Assembly: GCF_000621165.1 (NCBI RefSeq)
Contig: NZ_JHZA01000011.1
Span: 1 to 64,000, forward strand
Length of the DNA: 64,000 bases
Direction of reading: 5' to 3'
From: Enterovibrio calviensis DSM 14347
GTDB lineage: Bacteria > Pseudomonadota > Gammaproteobacteria > Enterobacterales > Vibrionaceae
Part shown: piece by piece, positions 50,135 through 63,966 of the stretch
Numbering within the stretch: position 1 is the stretch's first letter
How the letters are laid out: each line of letters opens with the position of its first letter
The notes under the pieces: model-generated
What the model was told of the DNA's origin: nothing
Databases searched by the model: none
Seen by the model: only the letters and a program-made list of their open reading frames with translations
Program-made: the position numbers and the translations under genes

Positions 50135-50923
50135 CTATTTCTTTCCCTTACCCTGATCTCGCGTGGGCTGAAAACCTGCCACGGCCAAGGCCACAAATAC
50201 CAAGGTACATCCAAGCACCACCAGCAATGCCGTGACATTGAGTTGTTGGTACAACGCAAATCGAATCAATTCCACGCCAAAGGTGAAAGGGTTGAACCGG
50301 CAGAGATCGTAGAGCCAGACGCTAGCTTCTTGCATTTTCCACAGTGGGTAGAGCGCTGAGGAAAGAAAAAACATGGGAAAGATGACGAAGTTCATTACGC
50401 CTGCGAAATTCTCCAACTGGCGAATGCGCGAGGCAATGACAATTCCTAGCGCACTGAGCATCAAGGCTGTGAGAAACAGCGCAGGAATGGCCATAACATA
50501 GCCCATGGGTGCCAATGGTCTGTCGTACAACGCCGCAATAACCAGAAAAGCCCCTACCTGAAGTACGCTCACCAACGCGCTGGCGATTTGTTTAGACAGC
50601 AACAAAAATGGCCTTGGTAACGGGCTAGTGAGCAGCACTTTTATGCTGCCCATCTCTCTGTCGTACACAATAGACAAAGAGCTTTGCATGCCGTTGAACA
50701 GCAAGATCATGGCGCACAGCCCAGGGAGAATATACTCCTCATAATTGATGTACGTGGCGTAGGGCTCCATGATGGCAATGCCAAGCGCGGCGCGAAATCC
50801 AGCAGCAAACACCACCAGCCAAAGCAGTGGCCTGACAAGGCTAGCGGCAAAGCGTGCCCGCTGCGAAAAAAACCGCAACCACTCGCGATAGCATATTCCG
50901 ACAAAGGCGTACCAATAGGTCAC
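50135..50923 (-). CDS. ABC-2 type permease of the PQQ-linked transporter
   Basis: A 262-residue inner-membrane protein with six hydrophobic spans of the ABC-2 (NodJ-like) class. The EEYILPGLCAMILLFNGMQSSLS segment and SALYPLWKMQEASVWLYDLCRFNPF near the C-terminus are typical of this class. Such permeases usually export. It overlaps the ATPase gene by four bases (ATGA), so the two are made as a pair. It is last in the minus-strand operon of the PQQ island, and its substrate is unknown. Confidence 0.9.
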   Translation of the reverse strand: MTYWYAFVGICYREWLRFFSQRARFAASLVRPLLWLVVFAAGFRAALGIAIMEPYATYINYEEYILPGLCAMILLFNGMQSSLSIVYDREMGSIKVLLTSPLPRPFLLLSKQIASALVSVLQVGAFLVIAALYDRPLAPMGYVMAIPALFLTALMLSALGIVIASRIRQLENFAGVMNFVIFPMFFLSSALYPLWKMQEASVWLYDLCRFNPFTFGVELIRFALYQQLNVTALLVVLGCTLVFVALAVAGFQPTRDQGKGKK

Positions 50924-51648
50924 TGGGCTGTCTCCGAGTTTTCATTGTCGCTGGTCAATGCAGCAAAGACTTTCGCCAATGTGGGGTGTTGGTGCAGGGT
51001 ACGCAGCGTGCTGGCTCTGTTGTGTGCCTGCAATTTGCCGCGATGAAGGATCAGCACATCGTCATCGTCATCCACTTCTTCGATTAAGTGGGTCGCCCAA
51101 AGTACGCACAATGGTTGCTGTTCACACAAGGCGCGCACGGCATCAGACAAGGACTTTCGCGCTTTGGGATCAAGCCCGCTGGTGGGTTCATCGAGCAGCA
51201 ATATGGCTGGTGAGTGCATCAAAGCACGCACCAATTCAGTTCGACGGCGATGTCCGCCATTTAAAGAGCGCACCTTGTCATGCAGGCGATCTGACAAAGA
51301 AAAGTGCGCCAGTAACGGCTCGGCTTTACGCATGCTCTGCGCTTTACTGAACCCATGCAGCGCCCCGTAATAACTGAGGTTTTGCGCCACGGTGAGATCC
51401 ATATCCAGCGTGCTTTGCTGAAACACCACCCCCAGTTTTGCCATGGTTTTTCTGCTCGGGGTTTGTTCAAGCAACTTGATGTCGCCTTGCTGACTCGGGG
51501 TGAGCTGAGTCAGCAAGGAAAACAGGGTACTTTTCCCTGCGCCATTCGGGCCTAGCAACATGTGCAAACCCTGTCCGAGGGACAGGGTAATATCATTGAG
51601 GGCAAGGCGCGAACCGTAGTGATGAGTGAGCGCGCTAACATCAATCAT
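50920..51648 (-). CDS. ABC transporter ATPase of the PQQ alcohol dehydrogenase system
   Basis: A 242-residue ABC ATPase with Walker A LLGPNGAGKSTLFSLL, Q-loop VFQQSTLD, a signature region SLNGGHRRRTELVRAL (LNGGH in place of LSGGQ) and Walker B ILLLDEPTSGLDP, followed by an H-loop WATHLIEE. It resembles the ATPase type that accompanies PQQ alcohol dehydrogenases (TIGR03864). I start at the ATG at 51648, seven bases after the upstream gene's stop; the longer frame would overlap that gene. It pairs with the permease it overlaps. Confidence 0.9.
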   Translation of the reverse strand: MIDVSALTHHYGSRLALNDITLSLGQGLHMLLGPNGAGKSTLFSLLTQLTPSQQGDIKLLEQTPSRKTMAKLGVVFQQSTLDMDLTVAQNLSYYGALHGFSKAQSMRKAEPLLAHFSLSDRLHDKVRSLNGGHRRRTELVRALMHSPAILLLDEPTSGLDPKARKSLSDAVRALCEQQPLCVLWATHLIEEVDDDDDVLILHRGKLQAHNRASTLRTLHQHPTLAKVFAALTSDNENSETAQ

Positions 51649-51655
51649 GGCGATA

Positions 51656-52633
51656 TCAATTCGCCTCCTGAACCGCAACCCCCCATGGGTAGCGACCCAC
51701 TTTGACGGTTTTCAGCACTTTTCGGTTTGGCACATCAATAATGGACACATCGCCACTGACGCCATTGGTCGCGAGCAGTTTGTCTTGTGCGCCATTGAAG
51801 GCCATTTGCCAAACACGGCGGCCGACCAGTAGGTAATCTTCCACTTCCAAGGTATCCGTGTTTACCACGGCAACATGGTTTGCAGGGCCTAAGGCGACAA
51901 ACGCGGTGCTGCCGTCAGCGGTTATGCGGACACCAACAGGTTGGACTTTGTCTTTGTGAACACCTTTTGGCGCGAAGTTGATTTTCTTGGTGATGGCTTT
52001 CGTGTCGGTATCAATAACTGATACCGTGCCGCCGATTTCCGCGCTGACCCAAAGTTGTTTACCATCAGGCGTAAACTCGGCATAGCGAGGACGCGTATCC
52101 ACCAAGGTGTTGTTCACCATGGTGTGAGTGTCTGTTTCTATCCAGTGAACCATGTTGGAGGTTTCGGAAGTAATGATGGCCATTTTGCCATCGGGACTCA
52201 CTGCAACACCTTCTGGCTCTACACCCACTTCCACTTGTGTCACCACGCTAGCGCTCGGAATGTCGACCACGGTCATCAAGGCATCGTCTTCGTTAGCGAT
52301 GTAAAGACGCTTCCCGTCGGGATGCAATGCGAACAGCTCGGGGTCTTCCCCTGATGGCAGCTCACCGACAAGGGTGTTGGTAGTGAGATCGAGCACCTGC
52401 ACAGTGTCAGACTCACTGGCACAGATATACAGTTTCGTGCCGTCTTTGCTTACTTCAATCCCACGAGGGCGATCGCCCACATCGATCGTGTTAACCACTT
52501 CCATGGTATCCATATCAATCACACTGAGGGTGTCATCTTTCTCGTTCGCGACATAAGCCAGCTCTTTCGCCACGGTTGGCGCAGCGAATAGCGAGATGAA
52601 CGCGAGCGTCAGTAGAGTGCGAGTTACTGTCAT
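51656..52633 (-). CDS. YVTN beta-propeller protein of the PQQ island
   Basis: A 325-residue periplasmic protein with signal peptide (TVTRTLLTLAFISLFAAPTVA) and about seven YVTN/lactonase-like repeats. Examples are AYVANEKDDTLSVIDMDT, LYICASESDTVQVLDL and LYIANEDDALMTVVDI, each giving one propeller blade. It fits the PQQ-dependent-catabolism-associated beta-propeller family (TIGR03866), whose role is unknown. It lies between the binding protein (12 bp upstream) and the ATPase (7 bp downstream) in one operon. Confidence 0.9.
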   Translation of the reverse strand: MTVTRTLLTLAFISLFAAPTVAKELAYVANEKDDTLSVIDMDTMEVVNTIDVGDRPRGIEVSKDGTKLYICASESDTVQVLDLTTNTLVGELPSGEDPELFALHPDGKRLYIANEDDALMTVVDIPSASVVTQVEVGVEPEGVAVSPDGKMAIITSETSNMVHWIETDTHTMVNNTLVDTRPRYAEFTPDGKQLWVSAEIGGTVSVIDTDTKAITKKINFAPKGVHKDKVQPVGVRITADGSTAFVALGPANHVAVVNTDTLEVEDYLLVGRRVWQMAFNGAQDKLLATNGVSGDVSIIDVPNRKVLKTVKVGRYPWGVAVQEAN

Positions 52634-52645
52634 AACAAAGTGTCC

Positions 52646-53851
52646 TTATGAGTTATTGGTAGGCTGGAATACACGGCATTGGCTTTGTGCTTGATCGACG
52701 CCGAGAGAGTCCAGTTCATTTCGTGGGTGCAAAAAGCCCTCAAAGGGAGCGGAAGCAACCAGTGCTTGCGCATCAAAAAGGGGAACTGTTTGACGAAGTT
52801 GCCCATTCCATGGACGGTAAGTGAGTTTGCGGCCTTTGTAAGCCGCAAGCTGAAACTGAGGGCCAAGGATAAATGGCCCTAACACAGAAGGATCGGCGGT
52901 GTTGGACACCGTCACTGATTCATTGATGGAACGAATTGCCACCCATGCTGCATAGTCTTTGGCACTCATAGGGCGTGAGAATAATTCGTTGAAGCGGTTT
53001 TGTAGCTGCACCGCGCCCCATTGTTCAATCACATAATGCCAGCCATCGGCTCGCAAACCGTGGGTGCCAACTACAGGGCGAGGCAGCCAAGTATTGTAGG
53101 GAAGGTGTTGGCCGAATAGGTTGCTTTCATCAATCACCCACACCACGTCATAGTCGCTGGCTTGGGTAAACACGGGCAATTCTGCCGACGCGGTACGGCG
53201 AAGGTCGGTATCAAAATCCCAAATTTTTTCGGCCACAACCTTGTGGTTGAATTTGTTCAGAGTGCGTTTTACAGCAGCTAAAAACGCATCATCCTCGGGC
53301 GTGGTGCCAGAGACTAAAAAGACGCGATTGAGCCGACGCACTCTCAGCCACTGAGCGATGGCATCGGCGCGCATGCTGTAACTAAGTGCGGTATGTAAGG
53401 TGTTTGGCACGCAAGTGGAAGTGCGCAACGCATCGTCTTGATTGCCGATATTCAGTAACACGGCGTCGTCCGGCAGAACTTGGCGTAAGGCAACAAGCGA
53501 CGGCGTGTCGATATCAGTTAAGAAAAAGCGCACGCCATCTTGATACCACTGTTTAGCGGCGGTATTGAGTTGGTTGTTATCAGCATTTGTTTCAACGCGA
53601 AGCGAATACTTCTGACCGAGAAATTTCCCCGTGCCATTGGCATCACTGATCGACAATGTTGCCCCTGCTTCCCCATTGTTTTCGGGTTCTCTGAGATAAA
53701 TAGGTGCGGAAGTTGCGGTATCGACGGGCTGTCTTAGTAGGCCAATGTCGACGTTGACAGTGGCGTGTGACATAAAGGAAAACAGTAAAACTATCAGCGA
53801 TATAAAACGCCATGCCCACTGCGTGTTAATGCTTGCATCATGTCTATCCAT
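52646..53851 (-). CDS. Periplasmic binding protein of the PQQ-linked ABC system
   Basis: A 401-residue exported protein with a type I periplasmic-binding fold like branched-chain amino-acid receptors (VFLVSGTTPEDDAFLAAVKRTL, YDVVWVIDESNLFG). It corresponds to the ABC substrate-binding component that travels with PQQ alcohol dehydrogenases (TIGR03863). The start is the ATG at 53851, eleven bases after GGAG; a GTG at 53863 would sit on the ribosome binding site. First gene of the minus-strand operon, divergent from the cytochrome c gene. Whether it truly feeds the ABC-2 permease is unclear, because exporters rarely use such proteins. Confidence 0.87.
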   Translation of the reverse strand: MDRHDASINTQWAWRFISLIVLLFSFMSHATVNVDIGLLRQPVDTATSAPIYLREPENNGEAGATLSISDANGTGKFLGQKYSLRVETNADNNQLNTAAKQWYQDGVRFFLTDIDTPSLVALRQVLPDDAVLLNIGNQDDALRTSTCVPNTLHTALSYSMRADAIAQWLRVRRLNRVFLVSGTTPEDDAFLAAVKRTLNKFNHKVVAEKIWDFDTDLRRTASAELPVFTQASDYDVVWVIDESNLFGQHLPYNTWLPRPVVGTHGLRADGWHYVIEQWGAVQLQNRFNELFSRPMSAKDYAAWVAIRSINESVTVSNTADPSVLGPFILGPQFQLAAYKGRKLTYRPWNGQLRQTVPLFDAQALVASAPFEGFLHPRNELDSLGVDQAQSQCRVFQPTNNS

Positions 53852-54071
53852 TGACTGAATCACTCCGTATCAAACTTCGATATGACTGTAAGCAGTGTGG
53901 TCGCCTTTTTCCAAAAAAAGGGTCTCTGTTTTAAAAAAATCCTCCCAAAGAATGAGAAATATCCCCGCTTTTGTAGCATGTTCGCAACGCATCGCGGCTC
54001 CTACACTTCTCCCTGTAACGAATAAAGCGTGTTTCTAAAAACGTACTGGTTGAAAGAGGAGTTAGCGCAAC
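53852..54071. promoter_or_regulatory. Divergent promoter region of the PQQ island
   Basis: These 220 bp separate the ABC operon and the oxidation genes and must carry both promoters. Two A-rich tracts around 53912-53940 are the main feature. I see no clear operator, and no PedR/ExaE-type regulator gene is in the window. Confidence 0.45.
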
Positions 54072-54524
54072 ATGGAAAAGGTTGAACGCAATATTTGCAT
54101 CGTCACCGCCGTCGCTCTGGTAGCGGCTCTTGGGTCACAACTCGTTTTCGCTCATGGGGATGTCACCCCGCAATCTATCGATACTTCAAGCATTCCCGTT
54201 CTGGGCTCGGAATGGACTGAGACCAATCCTTATCGCGAACAAACGGGCGATGTACGGGGCGAAATTGAGCGCATCGGGGCATCGGCCTACAACCAAAACT
54301 GCGCACGTTGCCATGGCCTAGAAGGGATCTCTGGCGGCATCGCACCCGATCTTCGCTTGTTGTCGCCCGATTACGATGGCGATGAGTGGTATATCTACCG
54401 CGTGCAAAACGGCGCCGTGCGAAATGGGGCGGTTTACATGCCGAAAATGACTGAGCATCTCAACCAAGAAGCCTTGTGGGCGATTCGTACTTGGCTTGAG
54501 TCTGTGGCGCCGGAAAACGGCTAA
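54072..54524 (+). CDS. pedF: Cytochrome c550, PedF type
   Basis: A 150-residue periplasmic mono-haem cytochrome, the probable electron acceptor of the quinoprotein dehydrogenase. It has a signal peptide (to about residue 27), the haem motif CARCH (near residue 77) and a likely distal Met ligand in YMPKM (near residue 122). Its position at the head of the plus-strand genes, and its fit to the c550 PedF family, link it to ethanol-type PQQ oxidation. Start at 54072 with GAGGAG upstream. It is 12 bp before the next gene. Confidence 0.9.
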   Translation: MEKVERNICIVTAVALVAALGSQLVFAHGDVTPQSIDTSSIPVLGSEWTETNPYREQTGDVRGEIERIGASAYNQNCARCHGLEGISGGIAPDLRLLSPDYDGDEWYIYRVQNGAVRNGAVYMPKMTEHLNQEALWAIRTWLESVAPENG

Positions 54525-54536
54525 CAGGAGGCGATG

Positions 54537-55772
54537 ATGATCCTATTTGGTCAGGTCACTGCCATGCGATTGCGATTACGAATGCGGGTACGCACTTTTT
54601 TCTCAACACTGCTCGCGGCATGGATGCTGCAGGCAGGGCCTTCTTTTGCGCTTTCCTATGACGACATTCAGGCGAAGGGGGAGATAACCATTGCCGTTTA
54701 TCGCGACTTCCCGCCGTATTCGTTTGTCGATGAAAACGGGGTGCCCGCAGGGGTTGATATTGAGCTGGCTAATGCCTTGGCAAAAGGCTTGGGAGTGACA
54801 TTGAACCTGCAATGGATGACACCGGATGAAACGGTGGAAGACGACATGCGCAACTATTTGTGGAAGGGCATGAACCTGACCAGCGAAGACGGTCGTCGTG
54901 TCAAAGCCGATGTGATGATGCGAGTGCCTTATGACAGACAGTTTGCGATGCAGCGTGACGACCTTGGGTTACCGGCGCACGAGCTGGTTCATATGTTTGC
55001 CCCGTATCAGGAAGAGCGTTGGTTGCTGGCGTATGACGCAAACCAGCTTGATCGGCCTCAAACTGCCGCCCGCTTTATGTATCATCCCGTCGGCGTAGAA
55101 GTGGATACCGTGCCGCAGGTCTATTTGACCACGGCATTCGGTGGGCGCTTTCGTGACAATAGCCGAACATTTCCTTCCGTAGGGGATGCATTTTCCGCGC
55201 TGACGGAAGGCGAGGTTGGCATGGTGCTGGGGATGAGTTCGCAGCTGCAATGGCTGAATCATATCGTAGCACCTTCGACTTCACGCCTTGTCGATCAACC
55301 AAAGCTCAATCAACCAAGCATCAATCAACCAAGCATCAATCAAGCAAGCATCAATCAACCAAGCCTCAATCGACAACGTTCAGATCAACAACGTTCAGAT
55401 CAACAACGTCCAAATCAAAAGCATCCCACCCATAACAATGCGTCATCAGACGCCCAACTCGTTGCGCTATCTAGCGATGCTCGAGCAAGCAATGCTCACG
55501 TTAGCAACATGCAACTCACCGAACTGGCGTTCCCTTTACTCGGTCGAGCCAAGTGGGAACTCGGTATCGCAGTACACACAAATTACCGTCAATTGGCTTA
55601 TGCACTGGAAGACATCGTGGTCGAGCACATACAAAACGGCGATGTTTTGCGTTGGGGTGAAAAGTACGGACTTCGCTATCAATTGCCGAGCCGTTATTTG
55701 CCTGAACCAGAAAACGACGTCGCAGAGAGCACGTCGCCACAAGCGAGCAATACGGTGGCAAATGTTCCCTGA
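54537..55772 (+). CDS. MoxJ/XoxJ-like quinoprotein-associated binding protein with tandem repeat insert
   Basis: A 411-residue exported protein of the type II periplasmic-binding class that accompanies PQQ dehydrogenases (TIGR03871). MoxJ/XoxJ proteins are thought to help mature or activate the dehydrogenase. The first lobe reads GEITIAVYRDFPPYSFVDENG and VDIELANALAKGLGV, and the closing lobe resumes at FPLLGRAKWELGIAVHTNYR. Between them about 45 residues are a Gln/Asn/Ser pentapeptide repeat (QPSIN then QQRSD), which I do not expect in this family. The start at 54537 is five bases after AGGAGG; the ATG one codon earlier is the alternative. It follows the cytochrome gene closely. Confidence 0.85.
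   Translation: MILFGQVTAMRLRLRMRVRTFFSTLLAAWMLQAGPSFALSYDDIQAKGEITIAVYRDFPPYSFVDENGVPAGVDIELANALAKGLGVTLNLQWMTPDETVEDDMRNYLWKGMNLTSEDGRRVKADVMMRVPYDRQFAMQRDDLGLPAHELVHMFAPYQEERWLLAYDANQLDRPQTAARFMYHPVGVEVDTVPQVYLTTAFGGRFRDNSRTFPSVGDAFSALTEGEVGMVLGMSSQLQWLNHIVAPSTSRLVDQPKLNQPSINQPSINQASINQPSLNRQRSDQQRSDQQRPNQKHPTHNNASSDAQLVALSSDARASNAHVSNMQLTELAFPLLGRAKWELGIAVHTNYRQLAYALEDIVVEHIQNGDVLRWGEKYGLRYQLPSRYLPEPENDVAESTSPQASNTVANVP
55291..55425 (+). repeat. 15-bp tandem repeat array inside the MoxJ-like gene
   Basis: Nine consecutive 15-bp units, all in register. The first five follow TCAATCAACCAAGCA (two exact copies at 55306-55335), and the next units drift to CAGATCAACAACGTT (two copies differing by one base at 55381-55410). 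Being a multiple of three, gain or loss of units keeps the frame. Confidence 0.93.
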
Positions 55773-55905: not shown

Positions 55906-57672
55906 ATGACAGCAAAGTCATTTAAACGCTGCGGCATGTATGCTGCGCTCTCATTCGCGTTAACCGCCATGCCGGTTTATGCGGGTGTCACGGACGAAGA
56001 CATCCTCGCCGATCAGGAAACCACTGAGGATATAGTGACTTATGGTCTCGGGCTTCGAGGGCAGCGTTACAGTCCCATGGACGCCATTAACCGCGACACG
56101 GTAAAAGAAATCCGTCCTGTTTGGGCATTCTCACTCGGCGGAGAGAAACAACGCGGGCAAGAAAGCCAGCCAATGGTCAAAGATGGTGTCATGTACGTGA
56201 CGGGTTCGTATTCTCGCGTGTATGCCATCGATGTAAATACCGGTGATGAACTTTGGCAATATGACGCCCGCTTGCCTGACGGCATCATGCCGTGTTGTGA
56301 CGTGATCAATCGTGGCGTTGCCTTGTATGACGATTTGGTGATTTTCGGCACATTGGACGCCAAACTTGTCGCGTTAGATGCAAAAACAGGCAAAGTGCGT
56401 TGGAAGAAAACCGTGGATAACTACCAAGACGGTTACTCGATCACCGCTGCGCCCATTATTGTGAAAGGCAATGTTATTACTGGTGTGTCGGGTGGCGAAT
56501 TCGGGATTGTAGGACGAGTACGAGCGTATGATGCGAAGACAGGTAAGTTGGTGTGGGAACGCCCAACGGTTGAAGGGCACATGGGCTACGTCTACAAAGA
56601 CGGAAAGAAAATCGAAAACGGGATTTCGGGTGGAAAGCCGGGACAAACATGGCCAGCTGATCTCTGGAAAAGCGGTGGCGCAGCGCCGTGGCTAGGCGGC
56701 ACGTACGATCCTGATACCGATTTGCTGTTCTTTGGTACAGGTAACCCTGCGCCTTGGAATTCACACATGCGTCCGGGGGATAACCTTTTCTCTTCATCTC
56801 GTCTTGCGATAGACCCTGATGACGGAAAAATTGTGTGGCATTTCCAGACCACGCCACACGATGGCTGGGATTTTGATGGCGTCAACGAACTCATTTCCTT
56901 CGATTACACTGAAAACGGCAAGCAAATCAAAGCGGCGGCGACGGCCGATCGAAACGGCTTTTTCTACGTGCTGAATCGCACCAATGGTGAATTCATTCGT
57001 GGCTTCCCATTCGTCAACAAGATCAGCTGGGCAAAAGGGCTCGATGATAAAGGGCGACCTCAGTACGTTGCCGAGAACCGTCCGGGGGATCCCAATGATG
57101 TCAAAGACGGTAAGCAAGGCGAGACGGTGGTTGCGGTACCGTCTTTCTTAGGCGGGAAAAACTGGATGCCGATGGCGTATAGCCAAAAGTCAGGCTTGTT
57201 CTATGTGCCAGCAAACGAATGGCAAATGGACATTTGGAATGAGCCGGTCGCGTACAAAAAAGGCGCGGCTTACCTTGGTGCCGGCTTTACCATTAAGGCC
57301 TTGAATGAAGAATATATTGGCGTGCTGCGTGCATACGATCCGAAAACCGGTGAGCGCGTGTGGGAATACAAAAACTACGCGCCATTGTGGGGCGGTGTGC
57401 TAACCACAGCAGGTGGTTTGGTCTTCACGGGTAACCCTGAAGGCTACTTGCTAGCGCTGGACGATAAAACCGGTGAGGTGCTCTACAAGTTCAACACAGG
57501 ATCCGGCATTGTCGGTAGCCCAGTCACCTGGGAAATGGACGGTGAGCAATACATTTCCGTCTTGTCCGGCTGGGGTGGCGCAGTGCCGCTGTGGGGCGGC
57601 GATGTGGCAAAACGCGTGAAGAACTTCAACCAAGGCGGCATGGTATGGACCTTTAAGCTGCCAAAAAGCTAA
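55906..57672 (+). CDS. exaA: PQQ-dependent alcohol dehydrogenase, ExaA family, lanthanide-type metal site
   Basis: A 588-residue periplasmic quinoprotein that oxidises primary alcohols to aldehydes. It has a signal peptide (to about residue 26) and eight tryptophan-docking propeller blades (such as [15 protein letters not shown] and [15 protein letters not shown]). The vicinal disulfide pair C130-C131 above PQQ lies in MPCCDV. Metal ligands are E198 (GGEFG), N280 (GTGNPAPW) and the catalytic D322. Two residues on is D324 (WDFDG). Calcium-type ExaA/PedE have Ser, and MxaF has Ala, at that place, while lanthanide-dependent XoxF and PedH have Asp. The overall sequence is ExaA-like rather than XoxF-like. 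A 133-bp gap separates it from the MoxJ-like gene. Metal choice is an inference from one diagnostic residue. Confidence 0.94.
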
Positions 57673-58067: not shown

Positions 58068-59576
58068 ATGATTTACGCAAAACCGAATACCGACGGAGCC
58101 GTCGTTAACTTTAAGGCGCGTTATGCTAACTACATCGGCGGTGACTGGGTTCCGCCAATCAAAGGACAGTATTTCACCGACACCTCGCCTTGCACAGGTG
58201 ATACCATCGCTGAAATCCCACGTTCTACAGCAGAAGACATTGAACTGGCGCTCGACGCCGCCCACCAAGCCAAAGCAACGTGGGGAGCAACTTCTGCTAC
58301 CGAACGTTCAAATATTCTGCTCAAGATCGCCGATCGCATCGAAGCCAACATCGAGTATTTGGCAGTGGCAGAAACGTGGGAAAATGGCAAGGCTGTGCGT
58401 GAGACGCTTGCCGCTGACCTCCCGCTTTGTGTCGATCATTTCCGCTACTTCGCCGGCGCGATTAGGTCGCAAGAGGGGACTGCGGCTGAGATCGATGCCA
58501 ATACCGTGGCCTACCACATTCATGAGCCTCTCGGTGTTGTCGGACAAATCATCCCGTGGAACTTTCCATTATTGATGGCAGCATGGAAGCTGGCACCTGC
58601 CTTGGCTGCCGGTAACTGTATTGTCCTTAAACCTGCAGAGCAAACGCCGACCACCATCCTATTGTTGATGGAAATCATTGGCGATTTAATTCCACCTGGT
58701 GTGTTGAATGTGGTCAATGGCATGGGCCCTGAAGCGGGTCAAGCGCTGGCTACCTCTGAGCGTATTGCCAAAATCGCCTTCACAGGTTCAACCGCCATCG
58801 GTAACCACGTGCTTCGCTGCGCGGCAGATAATCTGATTCCTTCGACCGTTGAGCTTGGTGGTAAATCGCCAAATATCTTCTTTGAAGATGTGATGGACCA
58901 AGAAGACGAGTTCATCAGCAAAGCCGTTGAAGGCTGTGTGTTGGCATTCTTCAACCAAGGTGAAGTGTGTACCTGCCCATCTCGCGTTTTGGTGCAAGAG
59001 AGCATTTACGATGCCTTCATGGAGAAGGTGATTGCACGTACTCAAGCCATCAAACATGGCAACCCTCTAGATTTAGAGACACAAGTGGGGGCACAAGCAT
59101 CCAATGAGCAGTACGAGAAAATCTTGGGATATATGGATGTTGGTCGCGCTGAAGGTGCAGAAGTGCTCATGGGCGGTGAAGCCGCAGAGTTAGGTGGCGG
59201 TTACTACGTGAAACCGACCATCTTCAAAGGCGACAACACGATGCGCGTGTTCCAAGAAGAAATCTTTGGCCCAGTGATCGCGGTGACAACGTTTAAAGAC
59301 GAAGCGGAAGCGCTCGCTATCGCAAACGACACCGAATACGGTTTGGGTGCGGGTCTATGGACACGCGATGTGAACCGCGCATACCGCATGGGCCGTGCCA
59401 TTCAAGCCGGGCGCGTATGGACTAACTGTTATCACCTCTATCCTGCTCATGCTGCATTTGGCGGTTACAAGAAGTCAGGTATAGGCCGCGAAACGCACAA
59501 AATGATGCTCAACCATTACCAGCAAACCAAAAACTTGTTGGTGAGCTATGACATCAATCCTTTAGGTTTCTTCTAG
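58068..59576 (+). CDS. exaC: Acetaldehyde / aldehyde dehydrogenase ExaC
   Basis: A 502-residue cytoplasmic NAD-dependent aldehyde dehydrogenase that turns the aldehyde made by the quinoprotein into the acid. It matches Pseudomonas ExaC from the N-terminus ([19 protein letters not shown]) to the end ([12 protein letters not shown]). The Rossmann segment [18 protein letters not shown], the catalytic base in [11 protein letters not shown], and the nucleophile C301 in [12 protein letters not shown] are present. It stands between two terminators, so it is likely monocistronic and separately controlled. Confidence 0.96.
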
Positions 59577-59636
59577 TCCTTGTCCGCTCGTTGAAGGCAG
59601 CTGCGACCTCCCCGCGCTGCCTGACGCAATAGCTTT

Positions 59637-59661
59637 GCGGGGCACGATGCCCCGCTTTTTT
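59637..59661 (+). terminator. Terminator after exaC
   Basis: GCGGGGC-ACGAT-GCCCCGC followed by six T residues. The next gene's reading frame is open through it, but translation starts beyond it. Confidence 0.93.
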
Positions 59662-59676
59662 ATGAGCAGGTTTGTC

Positions 59677-61800
59677 ATGCGATGGCGTAGTACCGTTTTT
59701 CTGTGGTTGCTGTTGATCTTGCTGCCTTTCATTGTTTCTGCCGAATCGTGGATCGAAGTGAGCGACGATGCGGCAACAATGTTTCCCCGTGCAACGCGGA
59801 TGAAAGCCTCTAGCGACACCTTACCCGTGACCGAAATCTATCAACTCGATCAGCCTATTGGTTATCTCTTTGAGACCGATGATCTGACCGATTTCCCCGG
59901 ATTTTCTGGCGACAGTATTAACCTTCGTGTCGGTCTTGATACCGACGGGCGAATCATTGGCCTTTCGTTGTTAGGTCACCACGAACCTATCTTCCTTCAT
60001 GGCCTCGGTGAAAAGCCGCTGGTGGATTTTATTGACCAATATGGCGGTTTGTCGCTCAAGCAACAGGTGTTGGTTGGCAGCGATCAGCAACGCATTGCTA
60101 GCGACGGTATCGCTTATTTTGATGGCGTGACCAAAGCAACGGTGTCGGTCATGGTGGTGCACGACACCATCATGGCGGCGGCGCGAAAAGTGGCGCAGGC
60201 AAGGCTCACAGGGTTTGGCTCTGCGGTGAAAGCAAGGCTTGAAACCGACGCGTTCGAACCACAAACCGTGCGCGAATTGAACGAGGCAGGGCTGTTGTAT
60301 CACTGGCAACTGAGTGATGAACAAGCCGCTGCAGCGTTGGAGGTGTCAGCTTCTCGCCTAGCACGAGCACGGGATCCGCAACAAAGCGATGACGTGCCTT
60401 TTTTCGATCTCACTATGGCGGTTCTTAACCCGCCTATTGTCGGTAAGAACCTGCTGGGCGAGGTGGAATATCAGCGCGTGATGGATTCGCTTGCGCCTAG
60501 CGACGTTGCCATTTTGGTGGGATCTCGCGGGGCGTATCATTTCGTGGCAGATGACTTTGTGGCAGGCACAACGCCCGCTCGCTTTTCGTTGCGTCAGCAA
60601 GGTAGCCCGCTGTCATTGCGCGATGCCGACCTGTTTCATCTTCAGCAAGCCGACTTTGCGTTGCCTCTCGTGCCGTTTGATCGGGTCAACATATTCACGT
60701 TTTCTGACCAAAGCGGATTCGACCCCTCGCAACCATTGTCCGTGGGAATGACGGTGCAACTGGTGAAAAATCACTTGGAATCTGAGCACGTCTTTGTCGA
60801 AAGCCAATATATATTGCCCGATCAGGTCTTGGTGGCTGTCACGCCGCCTGAACCGCCATTGCCGTTATGGCTGCGAATTTGGATCGATAGACAGGTTGAT
60901 ATCGCCATTGTTGCTGTGTACTTGTTGGTACTCACTGGCGTGTTTGTGTTCCAACACCGTTTGGCGCGCTTTAGTCGTTATTTAACGCCTCTGCGCATGG
61001 TCTCCTTGGTGTTTGTAACCGCCTATATTGGGTTCTATGCCCAAGGGCAATTGTCGGTCGTGAATATCTATACCTTGCTGCTATCGGTCTGGAATGGCTT
61101 CGATATTCGGGTGTTCTTGCTCGATCCGATTTTGTTCGTGCTGTGGACGTACGTGTTTATTAGCTTGTTTTTGTGGGGGCGTGGCCTTTTCTGTGGCTGG
61201 TTGTGCCCATTTGGGGCGATGCAAGAGTTGGTGGCGACCGCGGCGGATAAGCTCCGTCTTCGTCAGTGGAAAATTAGCGACGTCACACACCAACGTTTGA
61301 TCTACGTGAAATACGGCGTGTTGTTGGGATTGGTGAGCACTGCCTTTTTTGATTTGTCGTTGGCAGAATCCCTTGCCGAAGTTGAGCCTTTCAAAACGGC
61401 CGTCACCTTAATGTTCGAACGTACCTGGCCCTTTGTGCTGTATGCGGTTCTCTTACTGTTGGTGAGTGCGCGGGTTCACAAAGCATATTGTCGGTATTTG
61501 TGTCCGTTAGGGGCGGGGTTGGCAGTGCTTGGGCGCTTTCGGTTATTCAACTGGCTGACGCGTCGCAGTGAGTGCGGCAGCCCCTGTCGCTTGTGTGAAA
61601 AGCACTGCGGCATTAATGCCATTCGAAAAGATGGACACATCGATTACAACGAGTGCGTTCAGTGTTTGGAATGCTTAGCGATTGTCAGTGACGAGCATCG
61701 CTGCGTGGCAAACAAATACGGTAAAAATCGGAAATCGCGAAGGGCGGCAGCCGTCGAGACAGAAAACGTGGTAGTGGTTGTTTCTCCTCACAATAGTTAG
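59677..61800 (+). CDS. NosR/NirI-like flavin and iron-sulfur membrane protein
   Basis: A protein of about 707 residues with the architecture of NosR/NirI: a signal segment (MRWRSTVFLWLLLILLPFIVSA), then a large periplasmic domain. That domain has an FMN-binding motif, DGVTKATVSV, whose second Thr would take covalent FMN. About six membrane spans follow (from about residue 415), with two CxxxCP motifs (CGWLCPFGAMQEL and CRYLCPLGAG). A cytoplasmic ferredoxin-like tail ends the chain, with C-x3-C-x2-C-x3-C and C-x2-C-x2-C. NosR passes quinol electrons to nitrous oxide reductase; here it sits between exaC and pqqA with no nos genes. I use the ATG at 59677 (AGCAGG upstream); ATG 59662 is possible. 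Role inferred only as electron transfer. Confidence 0.88.
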   Translation: MRWRSTVFLWLLLILLPFIVSAESWIEVSDDAATMFPRATRMKASSDTLPVTEIYQLDQPIGYLFETDDLTDFPGFSGDSINLRVGLDTDGRIIGLSLLGHHEPIFLHGLGEKPLVDFIDQYGGLSLKQQVLVGSDQQRIASDGIAYFDGVTKATVSVMVVHDTIMAAARKVAQARLTGFGSAVKARLETDAFEPQTVRELNEAGLLYHWQLSDEQAAAALEVSASRLARARDPQQSDDVPFFDLTMAVLNPPIVGKNLLGEVEYQRVMDSLAPSDVAILVGSRGAYHFVADDFVAGTTPARFSLRQQGSPLSLRDADLFHLQQADFALPLVPFDRVNIFTFSDQSGFDPSQPLSVGMTVQLVKNHLESEHVFVESQYILPDQVLVAVTPPEPPLPLWLRIWIDRQVDIAIVAVYLLVLTGVFVFQHRLARFSRYLTPLRMVSLVFVTAYIGFYAQGQLSVVNIYTLLLSVWNGFDIRVFLLDPILFVLWTYVFISLFLWGRGLFCGWLCPFGAMQELVATAADKLRLRQWKISDVTHQRLIYVKYGVLLGLVSTAFFDLSLAESLAEVEPFKTAVTLMFERTWPFVLYAVLLLLVSARVHKAYCRYLCPLGAGLAVLGRFRLFNWLTRRSECGSPCRLCEKHCGINAIRKDGHIDYNECVQCLECLAIVSDEHRCVANKYGKNRKSRRAAAVETENVVVVVSPHNS

Positions 61801-61971: not shown

Positions 61972-62043
61972 ATGTGGAAAAAACCTAGCTACACAGAACT
62001 GCGACTCGGATTCGAAGTCACCCTCTATATCAGCAATCGTTGA
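61972..62043 (+). CDS. pqqA: PQQ precursor peptide PqqA
   Basis: A 23-residue ribosomal peptide that is the raw material of pyrroloquinoline quinone. It reads [19 protein letters not shown] followed by ISNR. E15 and Y19, in the E-x3-Y arrangement, are the residues PqqE cross-links. AAGGAG lies eight bases before the ATG. It was too short for ordinary gene calling. A hairpin terminator follows, which would let pqqA be transcribed in excess over pqqBCD. Confidence 0.97.
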
Positions 62044-62240: not shown

Positions 62241-63161
62241 ATGCAGATAGTGGTACTCGGTTCAGCCGCAGGCGGGGGCTTTCCTCAGTGGAATTGCCAT
62301 TGCCGCATGTGTCAGTCAGTCAGAAATGGCACCAGCCGAGCCTTGCCTCGCACTCAGTCTTCCATTGCGGTGAGCGATGACGGTGAACACTGGGTAGTGA
62401 TTAACGCCTCCCCCGATATTCGCCAACAGATTAATGCCACGCCTCAGCTTGCAAAAGCATCTGGCGCACGTGGTTCAGCTATTCGTGCCGTGATTGTCAC
62501 AGATGCACAAATTGACCACACGACAGGGCTGCTCATCCTGCGTGAAGGCTTGCCACTGGATTTGTATTGCACCACCGAAGTGGCAGAAGAGCTCAGTACC
62601 AGTTACCCCATCTTGTCGATGATGAAGCATTGGGAAGGGGGGTATCGCACTCACACGGTAGACGCGCAGTCGTCTGAAGGCTGGAGTATTCCGGCGGTGC
62701 CGGCGTTACGTTTTACCCCGATTACGCTAACGTCGAATGCACCGCCATTTTCCCCTTTCCGCAACCGCCCACGCCCCGGTGACAACATCGGGTTGAAAAT
62801 CACTGACACCCGAACCGGTAAATCTCTGCTTTATGCGCCCGGCCTTGGGGCAAACGATGATCCCGCTGTTTTAGCCGCGATGGCAGATGCAGATTGCTTG
62901 ATGGTAGATGGCACGTTGTGGACGGACGATGAAATGATCCGCGAAGGATTAGGAGAGTCGCTGGGTAGCGACATGGGGCATTTATCCGTATCCGGTGAAA
63001 ACGGCATGTTGTCACTGCTTGCGCAGTATGACAAACCGCGGAAGGTGTTGATCCACATTAACAATACCAACCCGATTTTAGATCCCGATTCTGATGAACA
63101 CCAAGCCGTATTGGCAGCAGGGGTGGACATTGCCTTCGATGGATTGGCAATCACGGTGTAA
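62241..63161 (+). CDS. pqqB: PQQ biosynthesis protein PqqB
   Basis: PqqB is a metallo-beta-lactamase-fold iron protein that hydroxylates the cross-linked Glu-Tyr intermediate in PQQ synthesis. The 306-residue chain begins with [20 protein letters not shown], with the structural zinc CHCRMC site. Further on are [17 protein letters not shown] (the modified metal motif), the [13 protein letters not shown] segment and [14 protein letters not shown] lies upstream of the ATG. It follows pqqA by about 200 bp and precedes pqqC. Confidence 0.97.
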
Positions 63162-63204
63162 GCGCAAAACGTCAATAACAAAAAGCGATGCCCAAGGAGG
63201 GACG

Positions 63205-63966
63205 ATGATGAACGCGATGAGTCGAGAAGATTTTCAACATGCACTGCTAACCAAAGGGCAGTATTACCATATTCATCATCCCTTCCATAAAGCCATGTAC
63301 AGCGGCAACTGCTCGAAAGCGCAGATTCGCGCATGGGTGGCAAACCGCTTCTACTACCAAACCTCTATCCCTGTGAAAGATGCGGCCATCATGGCCAATT
63401 GTCGTGATCCGGCGATCCGCCGTGAATGGGTGCAGCGCATTCTTGATCATGATGGGCATCAGAGTTTGGATTGCCAATGGGGCGGTATTGAAGCCTGGCT
63501 TCGTTTAGCAGAAGCCGTCGGATTAGATCGCCAAGATGTGATTGATGAAAAATGGGTGTTGCCCGGCGTGCGTTTTGCGGTGGATGCTTACGTGAATTTT
63601 GCCCGCCGAGCGACGTGGCAAGAAGCAGCATGTTCCTCGTTGACCGAGTTATTTGCGCCGGAAATTCATCAGTCGAGATTGGACTCGTGGCCGACGCATT
63701 ATGGCTGGATTGATCCCGAAGGATTAACCTATTTCCGCCAGCGACTCAGTCAGGCGCGTCGCGATGTACAGCATGGTTTGTCGATCACCCTCGATCATTT
63801 TCAAACCGCAGAGCAGCAAGACAGAGCGCTCAATATCCTTCAGTTTAAGCTCGATATTCTTTGGTCATTATTAGATGCCATCAGCATGGCGTATGAATTT
63901 GAACGTCCGCCGTATGTGGGCATTACCGATAAGCCAGTCTGGCATCATGCGCTGGATCGATCGTAA
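63205..63966 (+). CDS. pqqC: PQQ synthase PqqC
   Basis: PqqC carries out the last step, the cofactorless oxidation and ring closure of AHQQ to PQQ. The 253-residue all-helical protein has [36 protein letters not shown] and [17 protein letters not shown], with the active-site His, Tyr and Arg residues. The ATG at 63205 is five bases after AAGGAGG; the in-frame extension upstream overlaps pqqB and is not used. The stop codon overlaps the pqqD start (TAATG). Confidence 0.97.

Follow-up and report, generated by a model that had tools for sequence, protein, structure and literature searches.

Towards the end of the window (the whole stretch of DNA analysed, 64,000 nucleotides, C8:1-64000 of a 5.5-Mb genome in 28 contigs that is listed as 100% complete) lies a ped-type locus, in which a gene for a PQQ-dependent alcohol dehydrogenase stands among genes for a transporter, a cytochrome, an aldehyde dehydrogenase and PQQ synthesis:

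50135..50923, minus strand: ABC transporter permease, PedC family (TIGR03861, 423 bits, cut-off 241)
50920..51678, minus strand: ATPase of the PQQ-ADH ABC transporter system (TIGR03864, 291.5 bits, just below the cut-off of 302.25)
51656..52633, minus strand: PQQ-catabolism-associated beta-propeller protein (TIGR03866, over cut-off)
52646..53863, minus strand: substrate-binding protein of the PQQ-ADH ABC transporter (TIGR03863, 425.5 bits, cut-off 413.6)
54072..54524, plus strand: cytochrome c-550 PedF, likely electron acceptor (TIGR04494, over cut-off)
54534..55772, plus strand: periplasmic binding-protein-like gene (SBP_bac_3) with a repeat-rich insert (profile and alignments)
55906..57672, plus strand: PedH/ExaF-type PQQ-dependent alcohol dehydrogenase, 588 aa, ATG start (TIGR03075, 796 bits, cut-off 480)
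56494..56499, plus strand: codons of G197 and metal ligand E198 (translation, alignment)
56743..56745, plus strand: codon of metal ligand N280 (translation, alignment)
56869..56877, plus strand: codons of D322 (catalytic Asp), F323 and D324 (extra Asp of lanthanide enzymes) (translation, alignment)
58068..59576, plus strand: acetaldehyde dehydrogenase ExaC (NF050026, 937.8 bits, cut-off 900)
59635..61800, plus strand: NosR/NapH-like protein with FMN-binding and 4Fe-4S domains (FMN_bind, Fer4_5; NosR model below cut-off)
61972..62043, plus strand: pqqA, PQQ precursor peptide, 23 aa (TIGR02107, 47.1 bits, cut-off 20)
62241..63161, plus strand: pqqB (TIGR02108, over cut-off)
63094..63966, plus strand: pqqC (TIGR02111, over cut-off)

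The N terminus of the dehydrogenase resembles a signal peptide (judged by eye), and the PedH structures 6zcv and 6zcw ranked first among PDB entries in both the sequence and the fold comparison. Pairwise alignment gave 71.0% identity to PedH (6zcv) over 573 aa, and identities of 51.4% to the calcium enzyme ExaA and 38.6% to XoxF (6dam); with 38.6% to XoxF against 71% to PedH, XoxF identity was ruled out. A reading of the sequence alone (hereafter the sequence-only reading) had proposed a metal site of E198, N280 and D322-F-D324, and translation together with PDB alignment confirmed it: the PedH ligands Glu199, Asn281, Asp323 and Asp325 (numbering from a review, in excerpt) map to E198, N280, D322 and D324 with an offset of one. 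The alignment with PedH, ExaA and XoxF that this reading had proposed gave site motifs of WDFDG in PedH, WDYDG in XoxF, WDFSG in ExaA and WDFTA in the type IIB quinohaemoprotein, so that Asp at 324 is shared with PedH and XoxF and the Ser it had named for ExaA is indeed at the diagnostic position. D324 was invariant among 43 aligned Asp-type sequences, the window's own counted in. The vicinal Cys pair, which has a role at PQQ, is present as C130-C131 and was likewise invariant in 43 aligned sequences. Foldseek with a first AlphaFold model ranked PedH first (TM 0.87 by query length), with pLDDT under 50, hence low confidence, at the metal loops (residues 198-201, 280-294 and 318-326); a second model had a mean pLDDT of 62 for residues 321-330, and the models contain no metal. 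Because confidence at the metal loops is low to middling, the orientation of D324 is taken from PedH homology alone.

For a survey of these residues, 132 full-length homologues from 106 loci were aligned to the window protein (the 80 named loci are the best 80 of at least 591 confirmed candidates). Every homologue of ≥70% identity (101/101 rows; 96 distinct loci, as five rows repeat genomes already counted) read G197, E198, N280, D322 and D324, and every homologue of <60% identity (31/31) read D197, E198, N280, D322 and S324; none of the 132 rows fell between 55 and 72% identity. Residues 324 and 197 thus co-varied without exception (D324 with G197 in 101/101, S324 with D197 in 31/31). A maximum-likelihood tree of 132 rows (127 homologues, the window protein and four references; quick search, no bootstrap, with long outgroup branches flagged by the program), of the kind that the sequence-only reading had called for, separated the Asp-type rows completely from the Ser-type rows by a single branch (SH-aLRT 100); with the root as drawn, the fork of the Asp type had an SH-aLRT of 94, and the window enzyme fell in the PedH clade, apart from the Ser-type enzymes. 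Since residue survey and tree agree, residue 324 marks a deep and consistent split that separates PedH from ExaA.

The neighbourhood is of the same kind as that of PedH in Pseudomonas putida KT2440, with genes of the same families (PedF, transporter). Neighbour conservation was assessed by tblastn (E 1e-8) at the 80 named loci (the best 80 of at least 591 candidates). A match near the PedH relative was found for PedF at 71/80 loci, for the ATPase at 52, the binding protein at 45, the propeller and ExaC at 44 each and the permease at 42, with some loci shortened by contig ends or by the 10-kb flanks and with an ATPase count that may include unrelated ABC ATPases. PedA1A2BC is needed for PedH-dependent growth of P. 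putida at low La (PMC6839425, excerpt), and P. aeruginosa PAO1, which is without the rare-earth enzyme, is also without PedA1A2BC in the available part of PMC12997753. On family names, the four transporter genes here would be the counterparts of PedA1A2BC, and the set probably takes up lanthanide, the role proposed for PedA1A2BC in P. putida. Three TonB receptors were found in the window genome, none of them on the contig of the PedH locus. Here the pqq genes adjoin the locus, whereas those of P. putida lie far from ped (PMC12997753, excerpt); profile searches past the window end recovered pqqD, pqqE, an M16 peptidase, a response regulator, NosP and a hybrid kinase. The true start of pqqC is probably further in, because the model match begins at residue 42.

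The window enzyme would oxidise alcohols, and probably aldehydes too, with PQQ supplied by the adjacent pqqABCDE genes; the neighbouring cytochrome c-550 (PedF) would accept the electrons and hand them to the respiratory chain, and acetaldehyde would be oxidised further by ExaC in the cytoplasm. We infer both this electron path and the transport of metal by the ABC system. Three smaller observations concern the same genes. The response regulator, the NosP nitric-oxide sensor and the PAS hybrid kinase adjoin the pqq genes (L088:4503-9435; C8, ∼67.5-72.4 kb) and are possible regulators of the locus. The NosR/NapH-like gene sits between exaC and pqqA, and a similar gene occurs at 14/80 loci (the best 80 of at least 591). 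Inside the binding-protein-like gene (54534-55772), 15-bp tandem repeat units at 55293-55418 encode a QPSINQ-rich insert, and alignments to two Grimontia loci (L008, L010) and a Colwellia locus (L012) break at the repeat array, leaving ∼73-81 window residues unmatched.

Sequence, pocket residues, tree position and neighbourhood together make the assignment to lanthanide-dependent PedH, and not to calcium-dependent ExaA/PedE, well supported. We consider it very probable that the window protein is a PedH orthologue, that is, a periplasmic PQQ ethanol/broad-alcohol dehydrogenase with a light lanthanide held by E198, N280, D322 and D324; it shares with PedH of P. putida KT2440 (6zcv/6zcw) 71% identity, the same E/N/D/D ligands, the Gly before Glu and the clade. 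The proposal of the sequence-only reading that this bacterium oxidises alcohols with a rare-earth enzyme is supported along the same lines, with metal use, like substrates and cell location, inferred from homology. Purified PedH was inactive in the assay used for PedE; La, Ce, Pr, Nd, Sm, Gd and Tb all supported activity, Gd and Tb weakly (PMC5487730, excerpt). The extra Asp alone is no proof of lanthanide use, because it is also present in membrane glucose dehydrogenase, whose facultative use of lanthanides is a prediction only (PMC11996626, excerpt). One might suppose that the window enzyme is an ethanol dehydrogenase of the calcium (ExaA/PedE-like) type and that its Asp at 324 is incidental. 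It is of the same superfamily as ExaA (P. aeruginosa, 1flg) and 51% identical to it, with which it has in common the fold family, the E/N/D triad, the vicinal Cys pair and the substrate class, and according to a review excerpt PedH grown in the absence of rare earths seems capable of coordinating Ca. However, ExaA has Ser for Asp at the diagnostic position and Asp for Gly at 197, the Ser-type rows (31/31) form a separate group that differs at residue 197 too, and the nearest characterised protein is the lanthanide-dependent PedH. This supposition is therefore highly improbable, and a calcium-type enzyme was ruled out for the window gene by its residues (Asp, not Ser/Thr, at 324) and by the tree.

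To the PedH of P. putida there is one marked difference: the host here is a member of the Vibrionaceae, and a calcium partner of the PedE kind was not found in its genome. The sequence-only reading had noted the absence of a calcium paralogue from the window and had proposed a search for a second, calcium-type copy elsewhere; that search extended the absence to the whole genome. Pfam PF01011 matched two proteins genome-wide, both Asp-type, namely the window enzyme and the following XoxF:

C8:82239-84101, minus strand: XoxF-like enzyme, 620 aa (PF01011; DYD at the site)

This gene lies ∼25 kb downstream of the PedH-type gene and 18 kb past the window end; its product is 72% identical to XoxF 6dam and 39% to the window protein, and around it are a MoxJ-like protein, a SoxYZ-like carrier, a SoxH-like hydrolase and a CXXCW protein, all over cut-off. 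PF13360 matched seven stretches, four of them in the window ORF and the XoxF frame and three in one 389-aa frame on C9. The latter frame, presumably BamB-like, was set aside as a candidate for a hidden calcium paralogue, having no PF01011 match. A calcium-type (Ser) PQQ alcohol dehydrogenase was thus not found genome-wide by PF01011 and PF13360 searches. Since the one further PQQ alcohol dehydrogenase detected likewise belongs to the rare-earth kind, PQQ alcohol oxidation in this bacterium probably depends on rare earths.

With no calcium back-up, a facultative enzyme that accepts Ca or lanthanide and works better with lanthanide would suit this bacterium. The window genome yielded no Ser-type paralogue, nor did 20/25 Asp-type Vibrionaceae genomes (at most four candidates scored per genome), and membrane glucose dehydrogenase, with the same Asp pair, is predicted to be promiscuous (PMC11996626, excerpt). 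Yet P. putida PedH, 71% identical, was inactive under the PedE assay conditions (PMC5487730, excerpt), and the compared site residues of the window enzyme are identical to those of PedH, which leaves facultative use very improbable. A lanthanide-dependent PedH in a genome without a calcium back-up found would extend this branch of rare-earth enzymology to the Vibrionaceae, a family better known for its heterotrophic and animal-associated members. With 'lanthanide-only' hosts of this kind one could ask whether alcohol oxidation in seawater is limited by the supply of rare earths, and how expression is regulated when a calcium enzyme is not available as an alternative.

To establish the distribution of the enzyme in the family, the window protein was searched against 329 Vibrionaceae genomes (E 1e-20, at most four candidates scored per genome). 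Relatives were found in 26/329 genomes, 25 of them Asp-type, while in the 26th the sole match (32%) lay in a frame of 794 aa; site residues were read in 24 of the 25 Asp-type genomes, G036 being assigned by identity alone. A Ser-type copy was also present in 5/25 (G022, G036, G216, G217 and G218), and the Asp-type gene was broken into pieces in 3/25 (G019, G029 and G036). The nearest genome (G021) encodes a protein 98% identical to the window enzyme, and window DNA was 72-77% identical to four named loci (L008-L011) over aligned stretches of 7-16 kb. The organism was assigned to the marine Grimontia/Enterovibrio group. PedH relatives were common in marine gammaproteobacteria among the matches listed (at least 591 confirmed candidates). 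In the tree, PedH-type genes of the family occupied two places: a group of 18 rows that contains Grimontia, Enterovibrio and V. penaeicida, and one of four rows that contains V. sinensis and neighbours Colwellia and Paraglaciecola. This suggests that PedH-type genes reached the Vibrionaceae at least twice. XoxF was found in 15 Vibrionaceae genomes, and its site, read in 13/15 (the window genome's own and 12 others), was Asp-type in all. The XoxF of G026 (L143) has an internal stop and the PedH-type genes of G019 and G029 (L116, L118) are in pieces, from either decay or assembly error. Five more distant PQQ dehydrogenases in congeners, 30-33% identical, have Asp at 322 and 324; in four of them (L133-L136; G030, G023, G025 and G021) the site is DYD and Asp replaces the metal Glu, a third PQQ-dehydrogenase type.

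Lanthanide enzymology is already in print for Grimontia, for XoxF and, in the literature searched, not for PedH: Table 1 of a review (excerpt, citing Huang et al. 2019) lists XoxF5_G.m. of Grimontia marina CECT 8713 with a Km of 24 μM and La-Nd. That protein comes from the same genus group and is lanthanide-type, but it is a methanol dehydrogenase, and the XoxF of the window genome is of another branch than the window enzyme. The XoxF of G025, which we take as G. marina CECT 8713, is 93% identical to that of the window genome and would be the protein characterised as XoxF5_G.m. The remark of the sequence-only reading that lanthanide-dependent metabolism is little described in this family accordingly needs narrowing: XoxF5 has been characterised with La-Nd and PedH-type genes occur in 25/329 genomes. 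On a PedH-type enzyme or an XoxF-CBB pathway in Vibrionaceae, no publication was found in the open-licence literature (available in part). Vibrio and Grimontia are absent from the main text of a study of marine lanthanide metabolism (PMC11996626). The trait is thus already in print in Vibrionaceae for another enzyme (XoxF), and the parts worth testing are the lanthanide-only set and an encoded C1-Calvin route.

The components of that route are spread over four contigs of the window genome. The genes for FrmA and FghA are adjacent (751 and 410 bits, both over cut-off) and, being common in bacteria, weigh little for the use of methanol. Of the three subunits of the NAD-type formate dehydrogenase, alpha and gamma score over cut-off and the NuoF-like beta subunit below it. 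A Calvin-cycle locus encodes RbcL, RbcS, CbbQ, a VWA protein, aldolase, phosphoribulokinase and FBPase, with a CbbR-like regulator below cut-off:

C3, L151:3398-13485: cbb (Calvin-cycle) locus of the window genome (profile searches)

An XoxF-CBB methanol pathway has been shown in Bradyrhizobium and Sinorhizobium (PMC12628762, excerpt); for Bradyrhizobium diazoefficiens, growth with methanol called for sealed tubes low in oxygen (same source). The window genome resembles these in encoding XoxF, FrmA/FghA, an NAD-type formate dehydrogenase and a cbb locus, and differs in that the genes lie on separate contigs and in that several congeners tie cbb to hydrogenase. With FrmA/FghA, formate dehydrogenase and a Calvin-cycle operon encoded, a lanthanide-dependent fixation of CO2 fuelled by methanol is possible in Vibrionaceae. 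It is a tentative and rather doubtful proposal that this bacterium, with only rare-earth PQQ alcohol dehydrogenases (PedH and XoxF), uses methanol as an energy source, and possibly grows on it, via XoxF, glutathione-linked formaldehyde oxidation, NAD-formate dehydrogenase and the Calvin cycle in a strictly lanthanide-dependent manner. If XoxF does feed the Calvin cycle, an unexpected marine group would be added to lanthanide-dependent one-carbon metabolism, and with methanol as the source the Vibrionaceae would hold a lanthanide-dependent autotrophic methylotroph. Photobacterium indicum (Vibrionaceae) appears in a table of methanol utilisers (PMC3763247, excerpt), and Enterovibrio and Grimontia are among the matches to a Pseudomonas CbbL (PMC12875217, excerpt).

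Across the family, the formate dehydrogenase gamma subunit was over cut-off in 15/329 genomes, 14 of which are among the 15 XoxF genomes, and RuBisCO was found in 13/15 XoxF genomes (in pieces in G029) and, among the 314 non-XoxF genomes, in two at similar match strength or in six with weaker matches counted; because these genomes are mostly of one genus, the counts represent few independent events. It is moderately likely that the Calvin-cycle genes are unrelated to the rare-earth enzymes and serve hydrogen-driven or other autotrophy, kept by descent. Matches to [NiFe] hydrogenase lie on the RuBisCO contig in 10/15 Vibrionaceae genomes with strong RuBisCO matches (the nearest within ∼30 kb), and in G021 (C1, L160:12098-16751) hydrogenase-like genes with NuoF/HoxU-like partners (below cut-off) adjoin cbb. 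The two traits also part company in both directions, RuBisCO occurring without an XoxF match in G217 and G218 and XoxF without RuBisCO in G017 and G027. Against such a separation, the window genome, in which no NiFe hydrogenase match was found, and four congeners keep RuBisCO without hydrogenase, and SoxB, the one marker of a sulfur donor searched for, was not over cut-off in the window genome. A CO dehydrogenase beside the cbb operon, suspected from ORF sizes, was rejected when the genes proved to encode a metal P-type ATPase and cbb3 oxidase subunits. The cbb3 oxidase genes lie ∼5-8 kb from the cbb locus on the same contig.
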